Shown here: piece by piece, positions 988 to 3,945 of the stretch
Layout: every line of letters starts with the position of its first letter
How positions within the stretch are numbered: position 1 is the stretch's first letter
Source: Asterochloris sp. CNOR1
Lineage: Eukaryota > Chlorophyta > Trebouxiophyceae > Trebouxiales > Trebouxiaceae
DNA: 64,000 nt
Direction: 5' to 3'
Assembly: GCA_963969365.1 (NCBI GenBank)
Contig: OZ017753.1
Location: forward strand, 1,426,001 to 1,490,000
Notes under the pieces: generated by a model
Databases searched by the model: none
What the model saw: only the letters and a program-made list of their open reading frames with translations
What the model was told of the DNA's origin: nothing
Program-made: the position numbers and the translations under genes

Positions 988-1655
988 TCACTCCAGGCAG
1001 GCGCCCTTGAGGCTGACTTCCCACTCTGATCTTCGATGGTCCATGCCTACATAACTCTGCACGCCAGCTAGAGAGGTCGTCCACCATGCTTGCAACCTGA
1101 CATCAGCCATTTGCTCATGCGCTGGACATTGTGAAAGTTGCCCACCTGCAGCTGCCCCAGGGACGAGACTGCCAGCTTGCGGGCCTTCTGGATTGCATCT
1201 GGATCTGTTAAAGTCTGCAGGCAGAGACTGGGAGGTCTTGCATGGTAGATGCAGGCGCACTGCACAGACCAACATAAACCGGTGAGGCCACAAGACTTGC
1301 TGAAGTCAAATTTCAGCGGGTCAAGCACTCACCTTGTTCTGGTGAAACTCTACCTGCAAGGAAGCAGACATGGTGTACGGCTGCCGGCTCCATCAAGATT
1401 GGCCATACTCCTATAAAGCATGGCTGCCAGCACTGCAGTGGACATGCAACAAGCTCAGACATAGCTTGCCTTGATGTCTGCCACCAGCCCGTCCCGCTTG
1501 ATGGTGGGAAACCTGCAAGCAGAGCTGGGCTCAGTAAACAGGTAAAACCAAATCACAGGGAGCATCACTGCAAAATGCAACCTGCTGTGCCACACTCACC
1601 GTTTGGCAGCCTGGAGGATGTGGCGATACAGCCGAAGCACCTGTTGGTCCACCAT
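988..1655 (-). CDS. LYR-motif (Complex1_LYR family) small protein
   Basis: Five exons on the minus strand (1655-1600, 1512-1470, 1353-1333, 1214-1146, 1056-988) join in phase to 85 residues. The LYR tripeptide lies near residues 9-11 (QVLRLYRHIL), followed by the conserved FPTIKRD stretch and a second helix DPDAIQKARKLA. LYR proteins of this size are mitochondrial matrix adaptors that bind acyl carrier protein and help iron-sulfur or respiratory-complex assembly. The best match from memory is the plant LYRM9-like group. The start ATG has a good context (AAGATGG). Intron 2 appears to use a GC donor (AAG/GCAAGC). The gene begins only 28 nt after the stop codon of the CHCH gene on the same strand, so it may be read from a shared mRNA. 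The last exon (SYVGMDH to SLKGACLE) is the least certain part. Confidence 0.75.
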
Positions 1656-1683
1656 CTTATTGTTGGTCACTACCTGCCTGCCC

Positions 1684-2025
1684 TCATTGCTTGGAGGGCT
1701 GCTGCTCCTGCTTTGCCTTATTGAATTTGCTGTAACAGTCCTTGAGGGCCTTCACTTCTGCATGGGCACAGACCGCAAGGCGGTCGTGAGCGGGGAGCAT
1801 GCTGTAGCTCTTAGCATAGCAGAGGCCTGCACCTGCTTGACAGGCACGCCAGTCTCTAGAGTTGTCTCCCAGGCACTCCTCCAGCTGGGCATAGACCTTC
1901 CCACACCCCTGTGCGTGCAGCAGCAGCAATGCTCAAACCGTGATTTGCATCACCCAGAATGACAATGCTACCTGTTGATCTGTTTGTGGATCTATCCAGT
2001 CCTTTGAGGTCCTCTGCTTGTGCAT
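1684..2025 (-). CDS. Twin-CX9C (CHCH) mitochondrial protein
   Basis: Three exons (2025-1972, 1908-1833, 1757-1684) give a 67-residue protein. After an 18-residue hydrophilic start it has CGKVYAQLEEC (C, nine residues, C), then CQAEVKALKDC (again C-x9-C), the second motif being created by the last splice. That coiled-coil-helix pattern marks substrates of the Mia40/Erv1 import pathway of the mitochondrial intermembrane space. Plant COX19-like CHCH proteins of this size have the same spacing, including the RDWR-CQ link, and act in respiratory-complex assembly. The ATG was chosen because it opens the only frame that joins in phase to the first motif. The gene lies head to tail with the LYR gene (28 nt) and 116 bp from the divergent rhomboid start. 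Confidence 0.8.
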
Positions 2026-2141
2026 ACACCAGTGCTCCAGTCAAGCACTGTCGAAACTGGAATTCAAGGAGACAACGCATAAAAGTAGGTCAGCTCATCA
2101 CCTGACAGGAAAGTCATCAGGAGTAAGCTGTCGACTCTAAG
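2026..2141. promoter_or_regulatory. 116-bp divergent promoter region
   Basis: This is all that separates the CHCH start codon (minus) from the rhomboid start codon (plus). It must hold both 5' UTRs and whatever promoter they share. No TATA-like element stands out. The call rests on gene layout only. Confidence 0.45.
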
Positions 2142-3945
2142 ATGCACAGAAGCCTGCACAGCACACAGCATCGAATCCAATATGATCTGCTCCCTCACAC
2201 ATTTGCAAAAGTCAAGGCCAGCAGAGATCTGTCGAGACCATGGATAGTCAGGGCTGCTTCAGATGGTGATGGGCCAGGCAATCGTATCAAGAGCACACTC
2301 CAATCTTTAGACGGCTTGCTGGGTCCTCCAGACACCAGCACAGCAGAGACTGCTGAAGCAGCCAAGCCTGACAGGTACGTGCACAAAGATGCAGCTCATA
2401 AACATCAGCAATTGTAGCAAGAATAGCGCTCAAAGTCTGCATGCTCCTTGTGCAGTGTGCCTGAGCCACCTAAGCAGCCACAGGAGGAGTCAGGTCCAGG
2501 GTGGAATGTCAAGAGAATCCCACAGCCTGACGGCACCTCCAAAATTGTGACCAGCTATGACCTGCCTCTGGTGAGCAACGCGGCAGCAACACTCCTTCAG
2601 GGCACTCCTTCTGAGATCAAGCCACATCTCCTGCAGGCACAGCCGCGGGTGTCCTATGCCCTGCTGCTTCTCGTGCTCGCTATTTATGGGGCAGGTGTTG
2701 CCATTGCCCTCCTCGACAGCGGTGCAGCCTCCAATGACTTTTTCCTCAAGCTGGCGCTGATGAAGCCGAAAGTCATTACTGGGGAATACTACAGGTGTGC
2801 TAATTCAGAGCTGCGTGCTGACCTAGGGCATGCACCCTATTGCAACGCTGATGTGTCTTTGGGCTGCTATCGACTACCAAGTGTGGTGGTGAACTGTGTG
2901 TGATACAGTCAGATGTGCGGCGGCAATGCTGGTACCGCAGGCAGCCAGCAGCTGCTCACCTCCCTCAACATGACACACCCTGGGCTTGTGAGACTAATCT
3001 GACAACACCCGTGTGCTGCAGGCTACTGACAGCAGTATTCCTCCATGCTGGAACACTGCACCTAGGCCTGAACTCACTGGCCCTGTACAACATTGCACCC
3101 CAAGCTGAGGCGGTCAGGGATTGCTATGCTGACTGCTTACGACACTGATCAATGGCTAAGCTGACCGCTTGCTACGCTGAGCGCAGGTCCTTGGGCCCTA
3201 CTTATTTCTTGCTGTCTACCTGCTGTCAGGCATATCAGGAAATGTTGCCAGCTTCGCATTCAATGACTTGGTCGTAGTTGGCGCGTCAGGCGCAATTTTT
3301 GGGCTCATAGGTGCAGCAGTGCCTTGCCTGCACTGAATGTGGGGGATGTGCTTGCAGACTACTCGTGTCTTACATGCTGCACTGGCTGCAGGCGCTTTGG
3401 CAGGTTACTTCCTCAAAAACAGGCAGCTTTCCAATAGCAAAGCTAGCCTGATAGAAATCTTGGCCCTGTCCTCATTTAACCTGTTCCTTGGTCTCATTCC
3501 CAACAGTAGCGTGGACAATGCTGGTAAAGTGTTCTGTCTGTAGCTCCAATGATGTTGTTTGTTGCTGTCATTGTCTTGCAGCATGTTGCAATGTCTTACA
3601 ACCCCCGCCCTGTGCAGGCCATGTCGGTGGCTTTCTGGCAGGGCTCATCCTTGGTGAGCCTTGCAGCTGGGGTTCGAGATTCCAATGCCTGCGATGTGGT
3701 ATTTTGCACTCAGCTTTGGCTGACAATCACCACATCTCCCTGCAGGCCTGTTGTGTGCCCCTAAGTTCGTGGTGGATGAAGAACCCAGTGCTGAGCCCGC
3801 AAAGTTCCAGTTCAAGTCTGCAGACTCCAAGGAGCGCACAAGGGTTTTGAATGCAATTCCTCAAGTGCAGCGTGTTTCGGGAGTGGTTTTCTACAGCGTG
3901 TCCCTTGCCCTGAGCTTTGTTGCCCTCCTTGCTGGGAAACAATGA
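2142..3945 (+). CDS. Rhomboid intramembrane serine protease, probably plastid
   Basis: At least six exons. Exon 1 (2142 to about 2375) encodes a Ser/Arg-rich leader reading into IVRAASDGDG, like a chloroplast transit peptide with its cleavage region. Exon 2 (from about 2459) carries the first membrane helix. Later exons show the rhomboid signature in order: the His/Asn helix HAGTLHLGLN (near 3050), the catalytic serine in GASGAIFGL (near 3285) and the catalytic histidine in GHVGGFLAG (near 3620). The protein ends in a final helix, LSFVALLAGKQ. Both catalytic residues are present, so it should be active. The layout resembles plant plastid-envelope rhomboids of the RBL10/RBL11 type, which cleave membrane proteins inside the bilayer. 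The stop is at 3943-3945. Exon edges near 2900-3000 and 3340-3400 are approximate. Confidence 0.88.

Follow-up and report, generated by a model that had tools for sequence, protein, structure and literature searches.

A COA4-like gene and an LYR-family gene 28 nt apart in Asterochloris: a probable nuclear bicistron

Two short genes on one strand of a green algal contig, one encoding a COA4-like CHCH protein and the other an LYR-family protein, are best explained as the two cistrons of a single nuclear mRNA. We consider this explanation likely, with the shared transcript being predicted from the DNA. The genes lie in a 64,000-nt stretch of the trebouxiophyte lichen alga Asterochloris sp. CNOR1 (the window), on contig C8 of an assembly of 56.4 Mb in 21 contigs. 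The locus itself is real and confirmed. A sequence-only reading had named the two families and given their order, their common strand and the 28-nt gap between them, and all of these were upheld by spliced gene models, by two database proteins (P0001 and P0002) and by Pfam profiles; the limits it set, 988 and 2025, are the exact ends of the ORF pair. The pair is probably a bicistron of a kind already known from other green algae, and the statement that polycistronic nuclear transcripts had been reported for these algae is borne out (PMC11892635 and PMC11291117).

The two genes and their surroundings

The first gene, ORF1 (1684..2025, minus strand), consists of three exons (2025-1972, 1908-1833 and 1757-1684), whose 204 nt encode 67 aa. 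In a full-length Pfam scan the protein matched the CHCH domain PF06747 at 28.5 bits (cut-off 27.2). It is 100% identical over 67 aa to the database protein P0002, from a 1,658-nt contig of source 'lgn' that is longer than ORF1 alone requires. Both ORF1 introns, GT-AG introns of 63 nt (1909..1971) and 75 nt (1758..1832) on the minus strand, are absent from P0002, and because they are gone we take that protein to come from cDNA. Three of the five search matches, P0004-P0006, share 57-61% identity with ORF1. When these were aligned with the window protein, the CX9C cysteines C20, C30, C41 and C51 were invariant in all four sequences, and an IDP..DQQGCGKVYA block and RDWR.CQ were conserved in the same four; the alignment left out P0002, which is identical, and P0003, in which intron 2 is read through. 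A sequence taken to be human COA4 is 35% identical to ORF1 over 55 aa. The CMC4 profile scored 19.9 bits, under its cut-off of 28.9, and solved structures gave three weak matches, the best to P8MTCP1 (E 0.052) and the next to CMC4 (0.33), with no chain named COA4 among the three. We describe the predicted ORF1 product as a COA4-like cytochrome oxidase assembly factor of the twin-CX9C type. The second ORF1 intron is in frame and free of stops, and its retention would lengthen the protein; in P0003, which apparently derives from a relative's unspliced DNA, the intron is translated.

The second gene, ORF2 (988..1655, minus strand), is the longer of the two, with 258 nt in five exons (1655-1600, 1512-1470, 1353-1333, 1214-1146 and 1056-988) encoding 85 aa. 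Its intron 2 (1354..1469, minus strand) was assigned GC-AG ends, with the donor AAG/GCAAGC, because the resulting protein has a higher Complex1_LYR score (PF05347, 56.2 bits against a cut-off of 24.8) than the alternative built on the GT donor that the Astpho2 catalogue uses (46.8 bits). The same GC donor joins the CDC26 gene in frame elsewhere in the assembly. A protein search with the 85-aa ORF2 returned a single candidate (1/1), the Astpho2 catalogue protein P0001, whose 88 aa correspond to ORF2 plus three residues from the alternative intron 2 donor; we take the code Astpho2 to stand for Asterochloris. A C-terminus without the last splice, reaching 1068, was given up in favour of the spliced end at 988, which agrees with P0001. 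Judged by the family profile and by an LYR tripeptide at residues 9-11, ORF2 is an LYR-family protein. Its closest solved relative was LYRM4 (23 bits, residues 5-62), in a search whose query carried the superseded C-terminus. On contig C3, however, the assembly has a separate LYR sequence that is presumably ISD11/LYRM4, and those on further contigs we take to be LYRM1, FMC1, NDUFA6 and SDHAF3, the last name being backed by a Complex1_LYR_2 match. The LYR-profile scan also brought up one repeated ORF, which accounted for 17 of the 29 rows at an identical weak E of 0.886 (C3:560946 and C5:2599243 among them); it is 1148 aa long in 7 of those 17 rows and is perhaps a mobile element.

A DNA search with 800-2300 against its own assembly gave one match, itself. 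On the ORF1 side the neighbour is a divergent rhomboid-family gene (2142..3945, plus strand; PF01694, 120.8 bits), whose exons were joined by eye, so that its start and end are approximate. Its first ATG lies 116 bp from that of ORF1, and the 116-bp region between the two start codons (2026..2141) is presumed to hold the promoter and 5' UTR of the pair. On the ORF2 side a convergent cysteine-rich ORF on the plus strand ends in a TGA (985-987) that abuts the LYR stop (988-990) within the sequence TGATCA, and any 3' UTRs would thus overlap the gene on the opposite strand. A joined piece of this convergent ORF matched the PSI profile only, below the cut-off (14.3 vs 23.1 bits).

Spacing of the two frames

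The spacer (1656..1683, minus strand) is 28 nt long; the ORF1 stop (1686-1684) directly precedes it and the ORF2 ATG (1655-1653) directly follows. In A. protothecoides the published median distance between the ORFs of bicistronic loci is 40 nt, compared with 2,518 nt for monocistronic colinear genes; for C. reinhardtii the corresponding figures are 183 and 3,415 nt (PMC11892635). The 28-nt gap falls within the bicistronic range and not within that of monocistronic colinear genes, which supports a bicistron. From the A. glomerata genome, with 10,025 genes in 56 Mb of which about 26% is intergenic (PMC6652019), we calculate that intergenic regions average about 1.45 kb. Under a simple exponential with this mean, about 1.9% of gaps would measure 28 nt or less, and so the gap by itself is unusual and is no proof.

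The protein searches provide a further hint. Astpho2 was present among the LYR matches and absent from the five COA4 matches, as would happen when an annotation keeps just the longer ORF of a bicistron, and automated approaches are reported often to misannotate bicistronic loci (PMC12633428). Source 'lgn', which supplied the spliced COA4, yielded no LYR protein in these searches, and so nothing places both ORFs on the contig of P0002. Scans with the COA4 alignment found no relatives in viral_contigs and genome_contigs, sets without other algal genomes. A literature search, judged mostly by its listings, did not find the COA4-LYR pair by name, and Asterochloris was absent among the matches listed.

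The absence of an LYR protein from 'lgn' fits an arrangement of two overlapping monocistronic genes, in which LYR transcription would start from a promoter inside the COA4-like gene and COA4 transcripts would be polyadenylated within the LYR gene. Genes are packed tightly here, as the abutting stops of the LYR gene and the convergent ORF illustrate. However, this would require each of the two transcripts to have an end within the coding region of the other, and two published bicistrons in the same assembly have similar mature spacing (see below); we regard overlapping monocistrons as unlikely. The poly(A) signal TGTAA was dropped as evidence for 3' ends, the window not being enriched in it (52 seen vs 56.2 expected); on the minus strand of 600-2300 there is a single copy, at 880-876.

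Control pairs in the same assembly

Two pairs of genes that have been named as bicistronic in algae, TOM22-SDHAF3 (PMC11291117) and CDC26-TTM3 (PMC11892635), were found close together in this genome as well. TOM22 and SDHAF3 (37.4 bits, and 48.6 bits to PF13233, respectively, by Pfam) lie in that order on one strand of contig C12 (locus L019, reverse complement, 785 to 1477 and on). They are 482 nt apart in the genome and 27 nt apart once an apparent GT-AG intron of 455 nt is removed. Like the COA4-LYR pair, they consist of a small mitochondrial protein followed by an LYR-family protein; they differ in the identity of the proteins, in the apparent spacer intron and in the strong AUG of the first frame. 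At positions -3/+4 the TOM22 start reads G/G at MANKS, and an in-frame AUG farther upstream reads G/T; for SDHAF3 the AUG reads G/C.

The CDC26-TTM3 pair, on contig C18 (locus L039, about 600-2700), resembles the COA4-LYR pair in its short first ORF, its near-zero spacing and its weak and then strong start contexts (T/C for ORF1, G/G for ORF2). It differs in that the proteins are unrelated and that the stop codon shares 1 nt with the following start codon, as TGATG. The joined C18 protein scored 43.5 bits as CDC26, and the CYTH protein that we read as TTM3 scored 30.8 bits; the TTM3 start depends on a two-codon first exon that was joined by eye. Before joining, the raw CDC26 profile match on C18 stood at 19.5 bits, under the cut-off. 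The best raw match exceeded the cut-off at 25.1 bits and lay on C5, in a stretch that was rejected as glutamine-rich low complexity. A second CYTH match in the assembly is on C9. The presumed first TTM3 intron contains several repeats, diverged in sequence, that are similar to the second TTM3 exon (about 1795-2590 of L039).

It is clear from the two controls that closely spaced pairs of this type occur in the genome; they are not transcript evidence. With two published bicistronic pairs at comparable mature spacing, they support a COA4-LYR bicistron, and the order of weak and strong contexts recurs in one of the two (CDC26-TTM3, not TOM22-SDHAF3).

Start codons and the probable route to the second frame

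The sequence-only reading held that both start codons have usable contexts, which proved too generous for the first. The ORF1 AUG is in a weak context (-3 T, +4 C) and the ORF2 AUG in a strong one (-3 A, +4 G), as graded by the rule of PMC11892635 rather than by an Asterochloris consensus. Six other LYR or CHCH starts in the assembly, a control from which the rhomboid start (A/C) was left out, have a purine at -3 in four cases and are too few to define a consensus for the genome. A weak ORF1 context combined with a strong ORF2 context is the pattern described for algal bicistrons, for which mutational work in A. protothecoides gave support to leaky scanning as the principal way of reaching the second frame (PMC11892635). 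The weak and strong starts of the COA4-LYR pair match the prediction of leaky scanning.

The simplest way to picture expression of the pair begins with one promoter, presumably within the 116-bp divergent region, that would drive both genes. A single capped mRNA would then carry the COA4-like ORF1 and the LYR ORF2, with six introns spliced out. Scanning ribosomes would initiate part of the time at the weak ORF1 AUG, and those that miss it would proceed by leaky scanning to the strong ORF2 AUG. Between the two starts there are 2 AUGs, compared to 3.0 expected (Poisson probability of 2 or fewer, 0.42), and AUG depletion before ORF2 is thus not significant. An mRNA with its 5' end upstream of 2080 would carry further AUGs (2117, 2098 and 2080).

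A mini-ORF of five codons (MRAGR; 1670..1687, minus strand) begins at one of the two intervening AUGs, which has a fair context (-3 G); its ATG overlaps the ORF1 stop as ATGA, and its end is 14 nt before the ORF2 ATG. Reinitiation is therefore possible. On one bicistronic mRNA, ribosomes would finish either ORF1, at the UGA of AUGA, or the mini-ORF, and would then resume at the ORF2 AUG 28 or 14 nt farther on, ORF2 being reached mainly in this manner. The stop/start overlap of CDC26-TTM3 in the same assembly is in keeping with such a route. On the other hand, ORF1 at 67 codons is long for this purpose, since reinitiation is most efficient after ORFs of a few codons (PMC11892635), and as the main route we think reinitiation improbable, with leaky scanning preferred. 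Trans-splicing, an IRES and a 2A sequence were rejected by inference, considering the lack of a pyrimidine tract before the ORF2 ATG as well as the 28-nt spacer and the stop and change of frame between the ORFs.

An exon junction more than 50-55 nt past a stop codon is, by the usual rule, a signal for mRNA decay. Four junctions lie 84-217 nt downstream of the ORF1 stop, and by this rule an mRNA translated at ORF1 alone could be a decay target, which translation of ORF2 would relieve.

Taken together, the start contexts and the two published pairs in the assembly leave the nuclear dicistron that had been proposed as the best reading, with the single spanning transcript as its predicted element. 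An annotation artefact at either ORF or at both, which their short and intron-rich structure and the dependence of the LYR C-terminus on one catalogue model (P0001) might suggest, is hardly credible, considering that ORF1 has three database relatives (57-61% identity) in which each of the four CX9C cysteines is conserved and that ORF2 scores above the PF05347 cut-off.

Relation to known bicistronic loci

Exclusively bicistronic loci of green algae were reportedly treated by Gallaher in 2021. As described by Duenas in 2025 (PMC11892635), such loci share with the COA4-LYR pair two colinear nuclear ORFs, a short ORF1 and a short spacer, along with the weak and strong start contexts. The COA4-LYR pair, a bicistron predicted from sequence, differs from them in having no significant AUG depletion and in the mini-ORF that overlaps the ORF1 stop.

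LYR-motif proteins occur in conserved algal bicistrons, and one bicistron of A. protothecoides (Auxenochlorella), UTEX250_A05.08765/08770, combines a respiratory-chain assembly protein with a cytochrome oxidase assembly factor (PMC11291117, a preprint). This may be the same pair as COA4-LYR, the two being compared by description only; the excerpted text of the preprint does not give families or order. A mitochondrial function is suggested for both proteins of the present pair, and the idea that pairing two mitochondrial factors makes functional sense is possible, yet in many algal bicistrons the two proteins are functionally unrelated (PMC11892635).

Conclusions

The locus is an example of how one member of such a pair may drop out of an annotation, with Astpho2 appearing among the LYR matches and not among the five COA4 matches. 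If the bicistron is confirmed, exclusively bicistronic nuclear genes would extend to a lichen-forming alga, and one genome would contain a second pair with an LYR-family second cistron, beside TOM22-SDHAF3. A more speculative idea, to which we give little weight, is that in green algae LYR proteins repeatedly occupy the second cistron after a small mitochondrial factor (COA4-LYR, TOM22-SDHAF3), forming a dosage module in which the ratio of import factor or complex IV assembly factor to LYR protein would be set by the stringency of start-codon selection, e.g. by the level of eIF1 under stress. If confirmed, the COA4-LYR pair would be a naturally occurring case in which to ask whether bicistrons in algae keep mitochondrial assembly factors at a fixed ratio.
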